DNA from: a virus
IMG/VR virus record: IMGVR_UViG_3300040751_003709
Coordinates: 1 to 20,995 of that record
Direction: 5' to 3' (one strand)
Length of the DNA: 20,995 nucleotides
Of this stretch, positions 2,860 to 16,627 are shown in pieces. Below the pieces are notes generated by a model. It searched no databases. It worked only from the letters and a program-made list of their open reading frames with translations, and was not told the origin of the DNA. The number at the start of each line of letters is the position of its first letter. The stretch's first letter is position 1. A program made the translations under genes and the position numbers.

Positions 2860-3477
2860 CTATTCTTCTTCACCATCAGCGACATCATATGGTAAGCCTT
2901 CCGCCATTGCATATTCAGTATTAAAATAATATGGAGTGCAATCCAGCAATTCACCAAACATTTGCTCAGCATATTGGAAACAAATGCCAGCTTCTACAGC
3001 CATATCATTATTCAACAATTCTCTAATACCAGATTTTAATGTATCAATGTCATCAAAATCATAGAATGTACCATCGCCTGGAACCTTGGTTCTGATAATT
3101 TGTCCACCGCTCATATCACCAAAATGGCGAACATATAGGTGAGCCAAAAGACCATTGTTGTCGTTATTTTTCGCAAGATAACCTATATGCTCAACATATT
3201 CAATTACCGCTGGTAAAGGTTCATCCCATGGTTCAATACCATAAATGCTTTCTAATTCCGCAATATCTTCCTCTAATCCAGTTTGTCTGAATACAGATTG
3301 AAATTCTGTTGGCAATGTCACCGCCTCTTCAAGTGCAGTATAACAAATTAATTGGCTGCAAAGATATTTGTGATAAAGTTCTGGGCTAATTTCACCACCT
3401 AGCAAAATTTGAGTAAATTCAGTACGTTCTGCTGATTTGTGATGTTCCCAGGTAAGTTCTTTTAAGTTGTTTGCCAT
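2860..3477 (-). CDS. ho1: Heme oxygenase (biliverdin-producing)
   Basis: Cleaves heme to biliverdin IXalpha, CO and iron using reductant such as ferredoxin. With the chosen ATG at 3477 it has 205 aa. The axial heme ligand is His13 in the HKSAE motif, and the distal helix has the signature GDMSGGQI (from about 120) preceded by LYVRHF, as in cyanobacterial HO1. An in-frame TTG 18 bases upstream could extend it by six residues (MEELDF), but those codons contain the GGAGG ribosome site, so the inner ATG is the true start. It is followed after 3 bases by the bilin reductase, forming a heme-to-phycobilin pathway. A late-type TATAAATA element lies 64 bases upstream. Confidence 0.96.
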   Translation of the reverse strand: MANNLKELTWEHHKSAERTEFTQILLGGEISPELYHKYLCSQLICYTALEEAVTLPTEFQSVFRQTGLEEDIAELESIYGIEPWDEPLPAVIEYVEHIGYLAKNNDNNGLLAHLYVRHFGDMSGGQIIRTKVPGDGTFYDFDDIDTLKSGIRELLNNDMAVEAGICFQYAEQMFGELLDCTPYYFNTEYAMAEGLPYDVADGEEE

Positions 3478-3540
3478 AAAATCTAATTCCTCCAAATTGT
3501 GAGTGTTAATTACAAAGTTCGCTCGTGCAACTTTTGAACT

Positions 3541-3597: not shown

Positions 3598-4383
3598 TTA
3601 GAACGAGAACGCAACACCCGTGGATGGGGTCCACTCTTCGCTATCAAGGTTATATGCAGTTTCAGCATACACATCCAAACCTTGTACATTGGTGTAGTAA
3701 CCACCACCTACATTTTGTAAGCTGTCGTTTTCATCGCCGTTGACAAAACCTGTAACACCAAATACAGTTACATCTGTTTCATAAGCAAAGGTTTCGGCAC
3801 CATAAGTAAAAGTAGTTCCGATGCTAGCCTCAGTACCTGCGATGGAACGAGTTGCTCCGCCAAAGCCCATGTAGATAAATTCCTCTGAATCTAGGTTATA
3901 GTCCAAACCTACACCGATGTCAATCCCGGCTGCATCCATGCCATATGTAGCTTGTACATTTTTTACGTCAGTCACATCAGCTGTCATATCAGTAAGACCA
4001 ACCATAATGCTTGCGCCATATGCACTTGCGATTAGACTTTCACCATCATCAGCTGGATTGGCCAAAGTTGTCCCGCCTGCGTTTTCTGTGATTCCACCAA
4101 AGTCACCTAGCAAGTCACCCTGATCACCAAATGAGAAGGCAATATCTCCTGTTGACATTCCCACATGCCACGAATCAACCTCTACAGTATCTCCGTTCAT
4201 TGCAAATCCAATGCCGGCATTTCCTGCCATTGCATCAACACCAAGTTCTAGTGTTTGGTTGGCAACAATATCATCAGCTGCGTTTTGTGTAAAGTCCAAT
4301 TGAATTTCACCAGTGACATCCGCGGCAAAGGCAGTAGAGGTCATCAAAGCCATCGCTGCTGTAGTTAAAAATAGATTTTTCAT
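3598..4383 (-). CDS. Porin-like outer-membrane beta-barrel protein
   Basis: A 261-aa exported protein. It has a clear Sec signal peptide (MKNLFLTTAAMALMTSTAFA, cleavage after the AFA near residue 20). The mature part is acidic, rich in Gly, Thr and Asp, poor in Lys, and has alternating hydrophobic/polar strands (for example LELGVDAM, GIGFAM, IAFSFGDQGD, YGAETFAYETDVTVFGV). The sequence ends in Phe (GVAFSF), the usual outer-membrane barrel assembly signal. It resembles small alphaproteobacterial porins in style, but I do not recognise a specific family. AAGGAG lies well placed before ATG 4383. The gene starts just after the tmRNA terminator with no obvious promoter of its own, so it may rely on read-through. 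Possible roles are changing host envelope permeability or masking receptors; neither is shown. Confidence 0.8.
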   Translation of the reverse strand: MKNLFLTTAAMALMTSTAFAADVTGEIQLDFTQNAADDIVANQTLELGVDAMAGNAGIGFAMNGDTVEVDSWHVGMSTGDIAFSFGDQGDLLGDFGGITENAGGTTLANPADDGESLIASAYGASIMVGLTDMTADVTDVKNVQATYGMDAAGIDIGVGLDYNLDSEEFIYMGFGGATRSIAGTEASIGTTFTYGAETFAYETDVTVFGVTGFVNGDENDSLQNVGGGYYTNVQGLDVYAETAYNLDSEEWTPSTGVAFSF

Positions 4384-5694: not shown

Positions 5695-5702
5695 TATAAA
5701 TA
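5695..5702 (+). promoter_or_regulatory. T4-type late promoter
   Basis: Exact TATAAATA on the plus strand, 48 bases before the ATG at 5750 and back-to-back with the minus-strand early promoter at 5649-5676. Confidence 0.75.
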
Positions 5703-5749: not shown

Positions 5750-6082
5750 ATGGCTGCAAAGAAAACGATTGATGCGGATGCTGTAGAAGGAGTTGACGCA
5801 AACGGTGACGGACACATTTCAAAAGAAGAAATGAACATGCATCTAGAATTCAAACGGAGAGAACTAGAAGATCAAGATGCTCAAAGGGATGCCATGCGTA
5901 AAATGACATGGTTTGCATTGTTTGGAATGTTGCTCTATCCAGCTACCATTATGTTTACAGCTTATCTAGGACTAGACGGAGCCGCAGGTATTGTGGGTGA
6001 TATTGCGCCAACATACTTTGTTGCTATTTCTGCCTTGGTATCAGTATTCTTTGGTGCGAATGCATATTCTGCCAAAAAATAA
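5750..6082 (+). CDS. EF-hand membrane protein
   Basis: A 110-aa protein that combines a calcium-binding loop and two membrane segments. The EF-hand loop is DANGDGHISKEE at residues 16-27, with D16, N18, D20, H22, I23 and E27 in the canonical positions. A charged helix (about 28-50, KRRELEDQDAQRD) follows, then hydrophobic segments at about 52-73 and 85-104. AGGAGG lies close upstream and a late promoter is at 5695. It is the only gene in its late unit. I recall similar EF-hand membrane proteins in marine T4-like phages, role unknown; a calcium-sensing membrane or virion-associated role is only a guess. Confidence 0.88.
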   Translation: MAAKKTIDADAVEGVDANGDGHISKEEMNMHLEFKRRELEDQDAQRDAMRKMTWFALFGMLLYPATIMFTAYLGLDGAAGIVGDIAPTYFVAISALVSVFFGANAYSAKK

Positions 6083-7066: not shown

Positions 7067-7528
7067 CTAATCTTTTAAAAATCGCAGAGTATATACCTTT
7101 CCATCAGTTTTAAAAGTAACCTCACTGTGGCTATATTCTGTTACAGTAGAAGTTTTCCATGTAGTCACATAATCACAATGTGTGCTTTCCTTATAGCCAA
7201 CGATAACATTTTTACCTTGTTGTGAACCTTTATCAGCACCAATAAGGCCACCCATTACTGCTCCTGCTGCGGCACCACCGTCGTCACCTGTAACACTTTT
7301 GCCAATTACACCACCAAGGATCATACCTAGCAATGCACCACCGGCTGCGTCACCTTCTGTTTGCTGTCTCTCATACACAGGCACCTCAACTTTTCGACAA
7401 CGTCTTTCCTGTAAAGGAGTACTCTGCTCAATGTCAATATAGACATCACGAACCTTGGCAACGGTATCCGCAAATGCAGGTGTACATATGGATCCTGCCA
7501 AGGCAAAAGCAATTAATTTATTTTTCAT
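7067..7528 (-). CDS. Exported glycine-zipper (17-kDa antigen-like) protein
   Basis: A 153-aa protein with a signal peptide (MKNKLIAFALAGSICTPAFA, cleavage near residue 20). Residues about 60-105 form a glycine-zipper double-hairpin (GGALLGMILGGVIGKSV and AAAGAVMGGLIGADKG), as in the Rickettsia 17-kDa surface antigen and similar envelope proteins. The C-terminal half (YVTTWKTSTVTEY) is beta-rich. There is no lipobox Cys right after the signal; Cys15 lies inside it. It is first in an early operon with its own promoter at 7585-7613, followed by the sugar dehydrogenase. It probably acts in the host periplasm or outer membrane; superinfection blocking is possible but unproven. Confidence 0.85.
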   Translation of the reverse strand: MKNKLIAFALAGSICTPAFADTVAKVRDVYIDIEQSTPLQERRCRKVEVPVYERQQTEGDAAGGALLGMILGGVIGKSVTGDDGGAAAGAVMGGLIGADKGSQQGKNVIVGYKESTHCDYVTTWKTSTVTEYSHSEVTFKTDGKVYTLRFLKD

Positions 7529-7584: not shown

Positions 7585-7613
7585 ACTATAACCCATTATG
7601 ATTGGTATGTCAA
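7585..7613 (-). promoter_or_regulatory. Early promoter inside a divergent region
   Basis: Minus strand TTGACA (7613-7608), 17-bp spacer, TATAGT (7590-7585). It overlaps the leader of the plus-strand gene at 7620, so the two genes may interfere with each other. A near-late element AATAAATA (7560-7567) faces the plus-strand gene. Confidence 0.75.
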
Positions 7614-7619
7614 CAAAAA

Positions 7620-8114
7620 ATGCGTCTTCATTTATTAATCCCATTTCTCTTTGTAGTTTCCGGTTGTGAGCAATTAGAGCTGGAGAATCCTACTACGGAC
7701 TCAATCAAAACAGCTCGAGAGTTTTTACACTCTAGCGAAACTAAGGACCGAGCAGAGTTAAAGCAATTTCTTGGTTTAGATCCAGTCCGATATGAATGGT
7801 GTGCTGCATTTGTAAATTCTGTACTAGAGGTTAACAATATACCAGGATCTGAATCTGTTAGTGAACATCCCTTGATGGCAAGAAGTTTCTTGCTCTGGGG
7901 TGAAAAAGTATCTGAACCAGAACGAGGAGACATCATTGTGTTTCCAAGAGGCAATTCAGAATGGCAAGGCCATGTAGGGTTTTATATTTCAACATATTCA
8001 GTCACTGGTATAGAGTATTATGTTATTTTAGGTGGTAATCAGGATGATAAGGTGAGTTACGAACTCTATCCCTCGGCCAGGGCCTTGTCTATTCGTAGAC
8101 CTCCAGCCCAGTAA
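7620..8114 (+). CDS. Predicted lipoprotein amidase/peptidase (TIGR02594-like, NlpC/P60-CHAP type)
   Basis: With ATG 7620 the protein has 164 aa and starts MRLHLLIPFLFVVSGCEQ, a lipoprotein signal with lipobox SGC. A longer version from TTG 7602 adds six residues and is less likely. The mature part has the catalytic-type block EWCAAFVNSVL (Cys), GDIIVFPRG, then GHVGFY (His) and YYVILGGNQDDKVS, followed by IRRP. This order is the TIGR02594/NlpC-P60 cysteine peptidase pattern that cuts peptidoglycan. It may act at the envelope during entry or lysis. There is no clear Shine-Dalgarno. Its 3' end overlaps the convergent gene at 8089 by 26 bases. Confidence 0.82.
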   Translation: MRLHLLIPFLFVVSGCEQLELENPTTDSIKTAREFLHSSETKDRAELKQFLGLDPVRYEWCAAFVNSVLEVNNIPGSESVSEHPLMARSFLLWGEKVSEPERGDIIVFPRGNSEWQGHVGFYISTYSVTGIEYYVILGGNQDDKVSYELYPSARALSIRRPPAQ

Positions 8115-11349: not shown

Positions 11350-11357
11350 TATAAATA
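11350..11357 (+). promoter_or_regulatory. T4-type late promoter of the long plus-strand operon
   Basis: Exact TATAAATA, then AGC, 38 bases before ATG 11396. No TTGACA box is at the right distance. It is the only clear promoter for the 13 genes up to 16779. Confidence 0.8.
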
Positions 11358-11395: not shown

Positions 11396-11965
11396 ATGAC
11401 TAAATCTAAAATGATGTTCTTGTTAATGATGTTATGCTTGCCTAATTTTGCATTAGGTCAGGAAGCAGACAGCACAGCAAGTGATACTATTAAAACAGAA
11501 TCAACTACACAGAGTACAATTAACTCGACAAGTGATTCCACCACAACAGTAAAAACCGCTCCTCCTTCAGCTATATCTCCACAGATTAATACGGCAAATT
11601 CTGATCTGTGTACCGTAGGTATTGCTGGGGCAGTGCAGACTCAAATATTGGGAATTTCAGCAGGTAAAACTGTTCGTGATATGAATTGTGAAAAGTTAAA
11701 AAATGCTAAGACTTTATATGATATGGGCATGAAGGTGGCAGCTGTTTCTGTAATGTGTCAGGATGAGCGTATTTTTAATGCAATGATGAATGCCGGCACA
11801 CCATGTCCCTTTGATGGTAAAATTGGTGTAGAAGCTAAAGCTGCTTGGGAAGAAAACCAGGATCAAATGCCTGGAAACAAAAATAAGGTAGTAAATGAAG
11901 AGACAAAGAGCACTCTTATCGGCGGTGGTATTTTGGGCACTCTCCTCCTCCTTTTGTTACTCTGA
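11396..11965 (+). CDS. Exported protein with C-terminal membrane anchor
   Basis: A 189-aa protein with a signal peptide (MTKSKMMFLLMMLCLPNFALG, cleavage near residue 21) and a low-complexity Ser/Thr linker (about 23-58). A cysteine-containing domain follows (DLCTVGIAGAVQTQILGI, RDMNCEKL, VMCQDERIF, GTPCPFDG; four Cys), then a C-terminal hydrophobic run (LIGGGILGTLLLLLLL). The layout suggests a periplasmic domain tethered at both export and C-terminal anchor. It is first in the late operon. Its last 71 bases also encode, in another frame, the signal peptide of the next protein. No family recognised. Confidence 0.82.
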   Translation: MTKSKMMFLLMMLCLPNFALGQEADSTASDTIKTESTTQSTINSTSDSTTTVKTAPPSAISPQINTANSDLCTVGIAGAVQTQILGISAGKTVRDMNCEKLKNAKTLYDMGMKVAAVSVMCQDERIFNAMMNAGTPCPFDGKIGVEAKAAWEENQDQMPGNKNKVVNEETKSTLIGGGILGTLLLLLLL

Positions 11966-12821
11966 AGAAATAGGGGTAACAGGGACGGGGACTGAAGTCT
12001 ACAGTACCACAAATAATGCGGCCGCAAATGGACTTAGCTGGGTAATGGCTAATATACTACCAGCACAGACGGGCTTGACTATCGGTAATATTTTTTATCG
12101 CTATACAGTAGATAAAGAACCGGGTGATAATTTATTAGTTCATGTGCAGAATGAAAATGCACAAGGGCCAGGCTATGTTTTCAGAAGTACCGACGATTGG
12201 TCTGGTTTACCTGGTAACACAATTAGTAGGCTCATTTCGATTGAAAATACACCAGCAACAGCATTTGGTACAGGATCCATTCAAACGGAAGGTGAAGGTA
12301 CTATTAACAACCCTACTGTCATATACAGCTATAAGTATGATGAGTGTTATGTAGTAATTTCAAATCCAGAATGTCCTGGGTATGAGGATGCTTTATTTGC
12401 ATGGATGCAAGATCAAGGACTCTTTGAAGCACCTCCACAACCAGGTGACCCTTACTATGATGAATACGTCCAATTGGTAATGAATAGGGACCAAATGGGT
12501 GATGAGGAAGAAGATGTGACTGAAAAAGAACAAAGAAAGACACAGCAGGAAGAGGCCACTGAAGATGATCCTATCAGACAATTAAATGCTGGCATGGACA
12601 TAGAAGGTTTTGTTACTACTGCAAAAGAACAGGAAAAAATGTTACGACTATCAGCGGTACCAGAGTTTAATACTTATTATCAGGCACAGATTCCTGGGGG
12701 TGCCTATCCAGAAACAGTTAAATTATCAGACTCTAATATTCCTGACAACAGAAGAGCTCTTAGTAATTTGGCTTCAGATGCTGTCCATAATGATATGGTC
12801 AGATCACAATATAAAAACTAA
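11895..12821 (+). CDS. Exported protein of unknown family (308 aa)
   Basis: Starts at ATG 11895 inside the previous gene (71-bp overlap in another frame) with AAGGTAG just before it. The N-terminus MKRQRALLSAVVFWALSSSF is a good signal peptide with cleavage near CYS-EE (about 23). The mature N-terminal half is beta-rich (GVTGTGTEVYSTTNNAAANG, NIFYRYTVD, GYVFRSTDDWSG) and includes CYVVISNPECPGYEDALFAW. Then a Pro/acidic segment (PPQPGDPYYDEY), a charged linker (EEEDVTEKEQRKTQQEEATE) and a C-terminal helical part. I do not know the family. The signal peptide makes the overlap convincing because both frames encode sensible protein. Confidence 0.83.
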   Translation: MKRQRALLSAVVFWALSSSFCYSEEIGVTGTGTEVYSTTNNAAANGLSWVMANILPAQTGLTIGNIFYRYTVDKEPGDNLLVHVQNENAQGPGYVFRSTDDWSGLPGNTISRLISIENTPATAFGTGSIQTEGEGTINNPTVIYSYKYDECYVVISNPECPGYEDALFAWMQDQGLFEAPPQPGDPYYDEYVQLVMNRDQMGDEEEDVTEKEQRKTQQEEATEDDPIRQLNAGMDIEGFVTTAKEQEKMLRLSAVPEFNTYYQAQIPGGAYPETVKLSDSNIPDNRRALSNLASDAVHNDMVRSQYKN

Positions 12822-12841
12822 AACTAAAACGGAGTAAATTT

Positions 12842-13360
12842 ATGAATATCAAACCAATAATTACAGGATTAGGAATAAGCCTAGCTTCTGCAATTGGTTA
12901 TGTTTCTGTGGCAGCGGCAGAGGACATACCTATTATAGGAAATGTTCAAGCTAAGTGTTCAATCTTTACCGACACTGCAGGTGTATATGGTAACCCTACA
13001 CCCAATGAGTTGAGTACCGAGAGTGCTGACGGTGGTATTAGCCCCGTCATTCGTTTCGACGTGGCTCAGGCAGATTACTATACGGCAAGGATTAGATATC
13101 CATTATCCTTCTCGACAGCGCCGACCCTAGTTGACACGGTTACTTGGACTGGATCCACAACTGTTTCCAATACATCAGATGTTAATATGGCTGGGTATGA
13201 AGCGGCAAAGGTAGAATTTGATAACGCAACAGAATATGATTTATCTGTGGCAGGAACTACCTGGTTTTCAGTATCCTCGACAGCTACGTATGGGTTTAAT
13301 ACTGCATTTCCTGCAGGTACATATACATCTATCGTTGAAGCAGAATGCATCGCTAACTAA
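12842..13360 (+). CDS. Exported beta-sandwich protein, pilin/SCPU-like
   Basis: A 172-aa protein with a signal peptide (MNIKPIITGLGISLASAIGY...VAAAEDI; cleavage near AAA-ED, about 26). The mature part is Thr/Ser/Val-rich and beta-stranded. It has one Cys near the start (QAKCSIF) and one at the end (VEAECIAN), able to form a disulfide. The ending FPAGTYTSIVEAEC resembles the last strand of SCPU or chaperone-usher type pilin subunits (GTYtxxVxvxi). This family link is inference from pattern only. GGAG precedes the ATG. The next gene may be its chaperone. Confidence 0.78.
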   Translation: MNIKPIITGLGISLASAIGYVSVAAAEDIPIIGNVQAKCSIFTDTAGVYGNPTPNELSTESADGGISPVIRFDVAQADYYTARIRYPLSFSTAPTLVDTVTWTGSTTVSNTSDVNMAGYEAAKVEFDNATEYDLSVAGTTWFSVSSTATYGFNTAFPAGTYTSIVEAECIAN

Positions 13361-13375
13361 AAATAGGCTTTTATT

Positions 13376-13762
13376 ATGAGATATTTGATTTTATCGGTGC
13401 TGATTTGTCTTATGATGCTTTTTATAGCTAACAAGGCAATGTCGCATGAAATGACTCCGGCGTATCCTGAACTTAGAAATTCATATATGCCGGAGGTTAA
13501 ACAACTTAATCTTAAACTATTTAATAGAAGATCAGATGTACTCTATTATGAAATATCAGTATTTGACAAAGAATGGGAGCAAATTCCTTTTGCTTCAACT
13601 GAACGAATCTTTAAAGTAAACTACTTGGACAGAAAATCATTTACAGTATTCATTAGAGATAGAGATGTCAATAGTGTTGGGTATGTTTGTACAAGATCTA
13701 AATTACTAAAGGGGGGAGGGCCTACCGTTGTCTCCTCAAAAATATGTTCTAAAGTAAAGTGA
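13376..13762 (+). CDS. Exported small protein, possibly chaperone-like
   Basis: A 128-aa protein with an N-terminal signal (MRYLILSVLICLMMLFIANKAMS, cleavage near 23). The mature part, about 105 aa, has beta-strands LNLKLFNRRSDVLYYEISVFDKEW, then IPFASTERIF, SFTVFIRDRD and GYVCTRSKL, with a second Cys near the end (SKICSK). The spacing of strands and the Phe-rich middle recall the N-terminal domain of fimbrial chaperones (NxxxxxxxYEIxVxDxxWxxIPF), but it is too short for a two-domain chaperone and lacks the Arg/Lys pocket signature I could confirm. I recall similar proteins in marine phage genomes, without function. Confidence 0.75.
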   Translation: MRYLILSVLICLMMLFIANKAMSHEMTPAYPELRNSYMPEVKQLNLKLFNRRSDVLYYEISVFDKEWEQIPFASTERIFKVNYLDRKSFTVFIRDRDVNSVGYVCTRSKLLKGGGPTVVSSKICSKVK

Positions 13763-13772
13763 GAAAAATGAG

Positions 13773-14195
13773 ATGTTGAGATTTTTGGTAGTGACTGCTA
13801 CGTTATGCATGGTATCTATTGCAAACGCAGATTCAAGTTCACTAAACCTTCAAATCCCAACTGCGCCTGGAAATCATCAATATGATAAATTCAGAGCAGG
13901 GGATTTGGACTGTCAGAATGCTATTGGTTCAGCTACATATACTGAATTTGGAGTCACAGGTATTATATCTAGGAACCAAAATAATAATGGCTTTAATGAT
14001 TATAATGACAGTCTTGGTAGTAGCCCTAAGGATGTTGGGGTATATGCTAGAATAATTATTCCGCTTGGTGCTAAACCTAAAGCTAGAATTAATTGTAATG
14101 AATTGTATCAGCTTGAATTAAAAAAGAAAAGGCTGGAGGTAATGAAATTAGAACAGGAAATACAACAATTAAGACAATTACAATTTGAAAACTAG
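13773..14195 (+). CDS. Exported protein with C-terminal helix
   Basis: A 140-aa protein with a signal peptide (MLRFLVVTATLCMVSIANA, cleavage after 19 or so). The mature N-terminal part has LNLQIPTAPGNHQYDKFRAG and DLDCQNAIGSATY. Then GVYARIIIPLG and ARINCNELYQLELKKKRLEVMKLEQEIQQLRQL, a charged coiled-coil that ends the protein. The two Cys could bond. The barrel-like GVYARIIIPLG strand before a helix could suggest an envelope-attached part. ATG 13773 has only a weak ribosome site. It lies 10 bases after the chaperone-like gene. Confidence 0.77.
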   Translation: MLRFLVVTATLCMVSIANADSSSLNLQIPTAPGNHQYDKFRAGDLDCQNAIGSATYTEFGVTGIISRNQNNNGFNDYNDSLGSSPKDVGVYARIIIPLGAKPKARINCNELYQLELKKKRLEVMKLEQEIQQLRQLQFEN

Positions 14196-14204
14196 AGGTA
14201 ACTT

Positions 14205-14750
14205 ATGGCTGATAAAGATCTGGGAGAAGGTTTAGAGGCTTTCGATAATGAGGTTGAGAACCTCAAGAACACCAAAATGAAGTTATTTGGAATTACACTA
14301 ACACCATCTACTATTGGTGCACTTTTCGCTGTAGTGAGTGCTTTGCTAGGAACACTATATGGAGCATTTGAATCATATAAAGCGTTTCAAGAAATGAGTG
14401 AAAAGCTAGAGGTATTGGACTTGGAGGCTGTAGAAGCCAGGAATCTTTCCATCGAACGAAAGCTTGATGATGCAATTGATTATACACGGGATATTAAAAA
14501 CAGCTTAAAGGATGATATTATTAGAGTAGAAAGAATTACTGATTCTACAAGTTCTCGTGTAAAGAATATTCAGGATGACATTGATACCAGACTAAGACAA
14601 TTATCTGATCTGACAAGAGAATCAGAAAAGGATTCCAGAGACACAATGCGTGAAACAGAAGAACGAATTGATAATAAAATGAATAAACTGGATACAGATT
14701 TAAGAAAAACATTACAAGAAGCATTGGATAATCCATTATCAGGAAACTAA
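14205..14750 (+). CDS. Inner-membrane coiled-coil protein
   Basis: A 181-aa protein with GAGG before the ATG. It has an acidic N-terminus, a membrane segment at about 35-55 (TPSTIGALFAVVSALLGTLYGAF), then a long coiled-coil of about 115 residues (EKLEVLDLEAVEARNLSIER to the end) with many charged residues and heptad-like Leu/Ile. There is no signal peptide, so the topology is a cytoplasmic or periplasmic rod anchored by one helix. Such proteins recur in marine T4-like late regions. Possible roles include membrane organisation at lysis (spanin-like) or holding the exported complex, but no direct evidence. Confidence 0.82.
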   Translation: MADKDLGEGLEAFDNEVENLKNTKMKLFGITLTPSTIGALFAVVSALLGTLYGAFESYKAFQEMSEKLEVLDLEAVEARNLSIERKLDDAIDYTRDIKNSLKDDIIRVERITDSTSSRVKNIQDDIDTRLRQLSDLTRESEKDSRDTMRETEERIDNKMNKLDTDLRKTLQEALDNPLSGN

Positions 14751-15439: not shown

Positions 15440-16150
15440 ATGTCAAACGTTTGTCATAAAATGGCACAATTAGCTGAACTTGCATATTTGGATAGTGCAA
15501 AGGCAAAACCAAAAATGAAGGCCTTGGGTTACACGGGTCATAAATTCTTTGAAAATGATGGTGCTCAATGCCATGCTGTATGGAACAAGGAGGAATATGT
15601 CCTTGCATTCCGAGGTACAGAACCTTCAGAACTAAGTGATGTATTAGCAGATTTAAATGCTATTCCACGAGGTGCTATGACTCACGGTTTGGTACATTCA
15701 GGTTTCAGAAATGAATGTGATAAACTTTGGGCTGATATAGTAAAACACCATAATAATCACAAAACAAAGAGAATGTACATCACTGGGCACTCATTAGGTG
15801 CTGCGATGGCTACTATTGCTACATCTCGCTTTGAAGAGGAACGTAAGGTAGAACAATTAACCACCTTCGGCTCACCAAGAGTTGGTACTCGTAAATTTGT
15901 AAAAAATATTTCTACGACTCACCTTAGGTATGTTAATAATAATGATATTGTCACCAAGGTGCCATTGTTCATTATGGGCTATAAGCATCACGGTTCATTA
16001 CAATACATTAACTTTTATGGAAATGTTCGCAAAATGACTGGTTGGCAATTACTTAAGGATAGATGGAGGGGTTGGAGATCCGGTTTCTTGGATGGTGCAG
16101 CTGATCACGGAATGAATAATTACACTAGGTGTACAAAGGATATAACATGA
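15440..16150 (+). CDS. Class 3 (alpha/beta-hydrolase) lipase
   Basis: Hydrolyses ester bonds of lipids. The 236-aa protein has the full set: FRGTEPSELSDVLADL (about 57-72, oxyanion-side block), the nucleophile elbow GHSLGAA with Ser118, TFGSPRVG (about 142-149), Asp169 in NNNDIVTKVP and His223 in ADHGMNNY. There is no signal peptide, so the enzyme stays inside the cell or in the virion. Strong AGGAGG precedes ATG 15440. It lies in the late operon just before three small membrane-type proteins, which suggests membrane breakdown at the end of infection. Similar lipases occur in several large marine phages and viruses. Confidence 0.93.
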   Translation: MSNVCHKMAQLAELAYLDSAKAKPKMKALGYTGHKFFENDGAQCHAVWNKEEYVLAFRGTEPSELSDVLADLNAIPRGAMTHGLVHSGFRNECDKLWADIVKHHNNHKTKRMYITGHSLGAAMATIATSRFEEERKVEQLTTFGSPRVGTRKFVKNISTTHLRYVNNNDIVTKVPLFIMGYKHHGSLQYINFYGNVRKMTGWQLLKDRWRGWRSGFLDGAADHGMNNYTRCTKDIT

Positions 16151-16440
16151 TGGAAATGCTCACAAGGATGTTTGGAGATACGCTGTGGATCTATACTGCC
16201 ATTGGTGGATCCATTGTAGGTGCCGCCTTTTTAGCATGGTTCCGAAATACAAAAGCCGCTCTATATTTGATGGGTAAATTTGATGGCCTATTGGACCACC
16301 TGGTGGACCGCTTTGGATGGGAATGGCTTCAGGATGATCCAGAGGCATGGCGTAAACGATATCCAAAAGTCACCAAAAAGATTGATGATTTGGAGACACG
16401 GATACAAAAGTTAGAAAGCAAAAAGAAAAATGTTAAGTAA
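16147..16440 (+). CDS. Small membrane coiled-coil protein (97 aa)
   Basis: Chosen start ATG 16147, which overlaps the lipase TGA (ATGA) with AAGGATATAAC before it; a longer frame from 16129 is less likely. One membrane segment (TLWIYTAIGGSIVGAAFLAWF, about 11-31) is followed by a soluble part (FGWEWLQDDPEAWRKRYPKV) and a Lys/Glu-rich coiled coil at the C-terminus. Holin- or spanin-like sizes fit, but there is no family proof. Confidence 0.78.
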   Translation: MMEMLTRMFGDTLWIYTAIGGSIVGAAFLAWFRNTKAALYLMGKFDGLLDHLVDRFGWEWLQDDPEAWRKRYPKVTKKIDDLETRIQKLESKKKNVK

Positions 16441-16627
16441 ACAATGTAAAGCTCACTTAGATGAAGTTGGCGAAACTGGATTACAACACATGGGGCATGC
16501 CTTAAAAGCGGCCATTAAATTACAGCTCTTGGTGCCAGCACTTATTATTCACAGTGTTGCACCAAGATGCTTTACTAACACAGCATCAAATGTAATGAAA
16601 GATATTTTAAAGGAGAGATCAGAATGA
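16430..16627 (+). CDS. DUF6356-like small protein (65 aa)
   Basis: MLSKQCKAHLDEVGETGLQHMGHALKAAIKLQLLVPALII with HLDEVGETGLQHM matching the pattern I associate with DUF6356. A hydrophobic stretch (LQLLVPALIIHSV) could insert into a membrane. Its start overlaps the preceding gene by 11 bases and its end overlaps the next by ATGA, so the four genes from the lipase on are tightly coupled. DUF6356 has no known function. Confidence 0.72.
   Translation: MLSKQCKAHLDEVGETGLQHMGHALKAAIKLQLLVPALIIHSVAPRCFTNTASNVMKDILKERSE

Follow-up and report, generated by a model that had tools for sequence, protein, structure and literature searches.

A conserved late cassette for exported proteins in T4-like phages: a candidate envelope module at lysis

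Why would a lytic phage export several of its proteins late in infection? The question is raised by a six-gene cassette (genes named g1 to g6 here) in a stretch of DNA of 20,995 bases from a marine T4-like phage (IMG/VR record IMGVR_UViG_3300040751_003709), called the window in the following. An earlier note had described five successive genes for Sec-exported proteins under one late promoter, followed by a gene for a membrane coiled-coil protein, and had proposed an undescribed system. We recovered on the plus strand both the five consecutive open reading frames (ORFs) between 11396 and 14195 (g1, 11396-11965; g2, 11895-12821; g3, 12842-13360; g4, 13376-13762; g5, 13773-14195), each with a Sec-type signal sequence as read from its N-terminal hydrophobic core, and the ORF with a transmembrane segment and a coiled coil (g6, 14205-14750). 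The best-supported statement is that these genes constitute a late exported envelope module. Our preferred reading, to which we assign a probability of about 0.4, is that this module helps to breach or remodel the envelope at lysis; the facts read from the sequence are solid, the function is not.

Conservation, late promoter and export signals

The window was compared with 50,697 phage records and showed no close relative, tRNA genes excepted; tblastn gave zero matches for g2, g3 and g4 in these records, which means that a cultured phage with the entire cassette is absent from that collection. Iterative profile searches of fetched loci detected g1 to g6 in identical order and orientation in more than 100 contig loci, some of which overlap within one contig (73 loci with g3 after dereplication). 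Chance ORFs were rejected because of this conserved gene order, which likewise confirms that the set stays together in relatives. Median identity to the window copy was 62% for g1, 39% for g2, 54% for g3, 43% for g4, 54% for g5 and 37% for g6. The g1 family has 530 relatives in IMG/VR, and g1 was single-copy in 20/20 searched contigs. All five of these contigs that exceed 110 kb, and four of the shorter ones, encode the T4 major capsid protein (PF07068), which identifies the carriers as T4-like. Literature searches did not return a description of the cassette, and the proposal of an undescribed system holds for this conserved set as far as the searched collections show.

An exact match to TATAAATA, the T4 late promoter, is located at 11350..11357 on the plus strand, 46 nucleotides (nt) before the start of g1. 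Of 71 non-redundant loci, 30 carry the motif no more than 150 nt ahead of g1, in most cases 18-49 nt from the start (0.023 per locus expected from simple shuffles), whereas it was found upstream of g2, g3, g4, g5 and g6 in 0, 0, 1, 0 and 1 of these loci, respectively. Its position before g1, and almost never before the other genes, supports a single late transcription unit, as the earlier note had claimed.

N-terminal hydrophobic cores were retained in the non-redundant homologues of g1 (67/69), g2 (65/67), g3 (61/61), g4 (66/66) and g5 (61/62). Invariant cysteines occupy positions 72, 98, 121 and 137 in g1, 39 and 169 in g3, 105 and 124 in g4 and 47 and 108 in g5, and C151 and C160 of g2 are nearly invariant; together with the signal sequences, these even numbers are as expected for oxidised periplasmic domains. 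A conserved lipobox was not found in g1 to g5: lipobox-like motifs occurred in 1/69, 4/67, 2/61, 0/66 and 2/62 homologues, and none was seen by eye in the window copies. A PDB sequence search with the profiles of g1 to g5 yielded nothing significant.

The gene products and their two modules

The g1 product (phrog_20531) comprises a signal sequence, a Ser/Thr-rich linker, a domain with the four invariant cysteines and a C-terminal Gly/poly-Leu membrane tail. At 73/73 non-redundant T4-clade loci, the part of g2 that codes for its signal peptide overlaps the 3' end of g1 and is read in the +1 frame. The tail accompanies this overlap and is absent in seven non-overlap cases; in three loci (L190, L191 and L193) the overlap is present and the tail is absent. 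Serine codons of g2 were biased in the overlap (209 TCN versus 10 AGY, compared with 788 versus 417 elsewhere; p 7e-24), and T at g2 codon position 1 falls on g1 codon position 2, as Leu, Val, Ile and Phe need. Owing to the codon bias and the shared T position, both overlapping frames appear to be under selection, and the membrane tail of g1 is real; the C-terminal anchor that the earlier note gave to this Cys-domain protein is thus confirmed by a double-coding constraint. A tail arising as a mere by-product of overprinting is disfavoured by the three exceptions and by the TCN bias.

Behind its signal peptide, g2 has a lectin-like jelly roll (residues 30-151), a helical linker and a conserved C-terminal domain of ~60 residues. 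Its former description as a beta-rich protein of 308 residues applies to residues 30-151, which structure prediction modelled confidently as a jelly roll, but not to the remainder, which is helical or of low confidence. TNF-like lectins and BcsB domains of cellulose synthase are among the top Foldseek matches of the jelly roll, but its VIA-align Z scores (≤8.4) were unspecific.

g3 and g4 were folded as one read-through fusion, and the structural comparison covered mostly the g4 half. The mean predicted local distance difference test (pLDDT) score was 89 (~97 for each domain) and the predicted template modelling (pTM) score 0.55, which renders the mutual placement of g3 and g4 uninformative and lends no support to the donor-strand pairing considered in the earlier note. 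In this model g3, a homologue of phrog_25895 from Vibrio phages, is an all-beta protein with cysteines near both ends (Cys39 and Cys169); its C-terminal strand AECIA is conserved. The pilin/SCPU identity previously suggested for g3 was not confirmed, as no Pfam match was obtained at E up to 1, PF05229/SCPU included, and its Vibrio homologue gave no pilin match. An SCPU search in six metagenome-assembled genomes (MAGs) gave no match and was uninformative, since the control was silent as well.

The single-domain chaperone-like fold attributed to g4 was reproduced. The model superimposed on FimC (4dwh) with a Z score of 10.6 (root-mean-square deviation 2.7, 97 aligned residues) and on DraB and Caf1M with Z 10.5 each; domain 1 of FimC, DraB, Caf1M and CsuC was matched at Z 9.4-10.6 and VAP/MSP domains at Z about 9. 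Its 128 residues align to chaperone residues 3-114 only and the second Ig domain is absent, so that g4 is predicted to be one PapD/FimC-type Ig domain, i.e. half a chaperone. PF00345 (PapD family) had no match at E 0.1, either in g4 or in 63 homologues. His24, which lies close to the predicted cleavage site, is invariant among the aligned homologues, as are two cysteines; a His right after the predicted signal peptide is also present in two similar-sized Enterobacterales-phage proteins (L205 8601-8936; L206 8598-8948). For g5 (phrog_37374 family), two putative beta strands and a C-terminal coiled coil were assigned by reading the sequence, and the barrel suggested earlier is a guess. g6 has a single transmembrane segment from residue 27, followed by a long coiled coil presumably on the periplasmic side, and ends with [DEN]NPL in 57/60 homologues.

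Judged from its relatives, the cassette is a junction of two modules, g1 + g2 + g6 and g3 + g4 + g5. The g1-g2-g6 triad occurs without g3-g5 in marine phages unrelated to the carriers, namely the pelagiphages HTVC115P, HTVC023P, HTVC033P, Mosig and Baldr and roseophage CRP-207, and in MAG contigs. g6 was detected by profile in HTVC115P, CRP-207, ctXG6705 and MAG contigs, and a gene of g6 layout was assigned by position or sequence reading in HTVC023P, HTVC033P, Mosig, Baldr and S28C10. The g2 position of the triad phages is occupied by a larger exported protein of about 460-850 residues with a variable N-terminal part, named carbohydrate-binding protein by two depositors. One class of these proteins shares the C-terminal ~60 residues with g2 (hhalign 97.3%, E 1.9e-11); the other (HTVC023P, Mosig) has a coiled-coil C-terminus in which homology to g2 was not detected. 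Two deposited names appear to be wrong: CRP-207 gp73 (L093 3292-3873), a 'putative lysozyme', belongs to the g6 family of membrane coiled coils, and CRP-810 gp53 (L209 5818-6573), an 'OmpA family protein', to the g1 family.

About 180 Vibrio phages, which span several genome types, carry homologues of the g3-g4-g5 trio in the same order (phrog_25895, phrog_25455 and phrog_37374), with hhalign probabilities of 98.2% (E 3.7e-13), 95.7% (3.7e-9) and 99.5% (2.3e-22), respectively, the scores of g3 and g4 being somewhat inflated by the signal peptides included in the alignments. Unlike the cassette, the Vibrio trio directly follows large fibre-like genes (phrog_10818, without assigned function) and lacks g1, g2 and g6 in the loci read; in the T5-like phages Thalassa and pVp-1, genes for a holin and an endolysin come next. 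Vibrio phages also have a small lipoprotein gene that overlaps the 3' end of the g5 homologue or trails it closely (L204 9245-9448, L201 9089-9256, L202 8870-9271). Myophages of Klebsiella and Erwinia also have relatives of g5 (98.2%), which lie between small exported genes of similar size that are possibly related to g3 and g4.

A role in the envelope and its alternatives

In 110 non-redundant loci, frequent neighbours of g1 included an EF-hand protein (42), a SleB-type endolysin (17), a lipase_3 protein (16, typically about +3.7 kb from g1), a lysozyme-type endolysin (14), a gene scored as holin-like with three transmembrane segments (7) and a GH19 endolysin (6). A holin with three transmembrane segments is located just upstream of g1 in Mosig and a holin-like gene of this type upstream in S28C10, a lysozyme adjoins the g1 region in CRP-810 and HTVC033P, a holin-like gene and a lysozyme lie downstream in ctXG6705, and an M15 peptidase directly follows g6 in HTVC023P. 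Between -3.5 and +6.5 kb, at least one lysis-type gene on the same strand was counted in 45/73 T4-clade loci and in 16/37 others, the EF-hand protein with its putative holin role included. A lysis role is judged most likely because of these neighbours and of g6, which with one N-terminal transmembrane segment and a coiled coil fits the i-spanin type; the late promoter before g1 only, the proximity of the triad to lysis genes in several independent phages and the selection on the g1 tail count for it as well. The products of g1 to g6 would then build an envelope complex in which g6 would sit in the inner membrane and extend its coiled coil into the periplasm, the C-terminal tail would hold g1 in the membrane and the lectin-like domain of g2 would face a sugar surface, e.g. 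peptidoglycan or lipopolysaccharide. The all-beta g3, the half PapD chaperone g4 and g5 with its two strands and coiled coil would add a rod or connector, and the coiled coil of g5 may pair with that of g6. Late in infection, as the cell is about to lyse, this complex would act alongside holin, endolysin and lipase and help to disrupt the outer envelope or to remodel it, doing spanin-like work with different parts.

Several observations weigh against such a role at lysis. The count of lysis-type neighbours has no matched random-window control, and such neighbours were missing near g1 in a sizeable minority, e.g. in HTVC202P. Given the lack of a conserved lipobox in g1 to g5, no outer-membrane anchor of the o-spanin type is seen. 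PF03245 (lambda Rz) matched neither g6 nor the carrier contigs; its absence from the contigs would speak for the lysis role but is weak evidence, as the same search also missed the annotated Rz-like protein of Thalassa. The N-terminal domain of g2 is swapped between lineages, which suits binding better than membrane fusion, and in Vibrio phages the g3-g5 homologues coexist, after fibre-like genes, with an annotated Rz-like spanin.

The cassette resembles spanins (Rz/Rz1 and unimolecular) in being late and near holin and endolysin genes, in the inner-membrane coiled coil of g6, in the overlapping exported genes g1/g2 and in the N-terminal signal and C-terminal transmembrane segment of g1. It differs from them by six genes instead of one or two, an adhesin-like swapped domain, the missing Rz family match and the missing outer-membrane lipoprotein signal. 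The lipobox partner of a two-component spanin was not found among g1 to g5, nor was a unimolecular layout, g1 having a C-terminal transmembrane segment but an ordinary signal peptide. Because the lipoprotein that defines spanins is missing, we did not file the cassette as a spanin. Pelagiphages are reported to encode curli (type VIII) secretion modules (PMC9599517, PMC7029224, PMC9004378), for which a role in lysis has been proposed (PMC9004378). There, too, a lytic marine phage exports several proteins into the envelope of the infected cell, but with other folds and another gene order, and g1 to g6 gave no Pfam match to CsgG, CsgF or CsgA. The oddness of late export stressed by the earlier note is tempered by the curli precedent.

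The main rival is receptor masking or superinfection exclusion, in which the lectin-like g2, with a rod of g3-g5, would cover the phage's own receptor late and spare the loss of progeny on the host cell or its debris. We consider it somewhat improbable; the swapping of the lectin-like domain and the linkage of g3-g5 to fibre genes nevertheless make it a serious rival. The lectin/TNF-like jelly roll at the start of g2, replaced by other domains in relatives, the depositors' name for its equivalent and, in several genome types of Vibrio phages, the position of the g3-g4-g5 homologues directly behind large fibre-like genes all agree with masking, and in T5 the gene for the receptor-blocking lipoprotein, llp, adjoins the receptor-binding gene. 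Masking is opposed by the late timing, by the triad often lying near lysis genes and by the lack of a conserved lipobox in g1-g5; no outer-membrane translocation machinery was seen, and the fibre-like genes have no assigned function. The same fibre-like genes, together with the late promoter, would fit virion proteins, i.e. exported products that attach to particles at exit, e.g. on fibres. We hold this to be very unlikely, since a periplasmic location is implied by the signal sequences and the conserved pairs of Cys, g1 and g6 are membrane proteins, and tailed-phage virions assemble in the cytoplasm.

A usher-less mini pilus, with g3 as subunit, g4 as half-chaperone and g5 as outer-membrane pore or base of a periplasmic or surface fibre, is unlikely as well. 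It draws on what the cassette shares with chaperone-usher pili (FimC, Caf1M, CsuC; SCPU), namely the chaperone domain-1 fold of g4 and an exported all-beta g3 with a candidate disulfide pair formed by the cysteines near its ends, and on the trio travelling as a set in distant phages. The cassette departs from these pili in its single-domain chaperone and in lacking any SCPU, pilin or fimbrial family match; VAP/MSP domains score nearly as high with g4, and the low pTM of the fusion model does not help. No gene for an usher-sized outer-membrane protein was present in the cassette or among its common neighbours, which weakens a surface fibre. Returning to the envelope module, we put forward as a tentative possibility, short of even odds, that it is a novel phage trans-envelope machine made of an inner-membrane coiled coil, a tail-anchored Cys-domain protein, an interchangeable lectin-like adhesin and a pilin/half-chaperone/hairpin rod, which marine phages would assemble late, either for opening the outer membrane or for sealing the host surface, and whose mechanism would differ from those of spanins, ushers and curli.

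Accessory genes and significance for SAR11 phages

The class 3 lipase gene, g9 (15440..16150, plus strand; Pfam Lipase_3 2.3e-23), often lies shortly downstream of the cassette. The product of the EF-hand gene (5750..6082, plus strand) is putatively holin-like and hydrophobic in its C-terminal half; the gene has its own TATAAATA at 5695, 55 nt upstream, and in relatives it is usually found downstream of the cassette. Of 20 larger contigs, 12 contained it, and in 8 of these it followed g1 at a distance of up to about 5.5 kb. In L177 the homologue is placed between g6 and the g2-like gene, in CRP-207 immediately behind g6. PF11351 and PF11031 gave no match in T4-like contigs, but the control was silent for both, and PF11351 was matched in a later set.

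On the plus strand, 7602-8114 encodes a protein that has a CHAP domain and a lipobox-like signal (VVSGC) and resembles the tail-lysozyme domains of phrog_1259; it may be an exported lipoprotein that hydrolyses peptidoglycan. Downstream of the lipase, 16430-16627 encodes a DUF6356 protein (E 3e-12), which a few relatives have as well. The minus strand carries a heme oxygenase gene (2860-3495; PF01126, E 5e-25), a gene for an exported Gly-zipper (YMGG/Omp-like) protein (7067-7528) that is near the cassette in several relatives, too, and a gene for a 261-residue exported porin-like protein without Pfam or PHROG match (3598-4383). Six T4-clade loci have genes related to this last one about 0.4-1.4 kb ahead of g1.

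Members of the g1 family are found in phages that infect SAR11, the ocean's most abundant bacteria, and the way in which SAR11 phages breach the outer membrane is largely undescribed; among 677 surveyed phages of Gram-negative hosts, 91 had no recognisable spanin (PMC6139136). Counterparts of cassette genes are present in the cultured phages HTVC115P, HTVC023P, Mosig and CRP-207, and those of g3-g5 in Thalassa, pVp-1 and other Vibrio phages. This late export module, conserved and made of two separable mobile parts, is a testable candidate for the outer-membrane step or for late surface exclusion.

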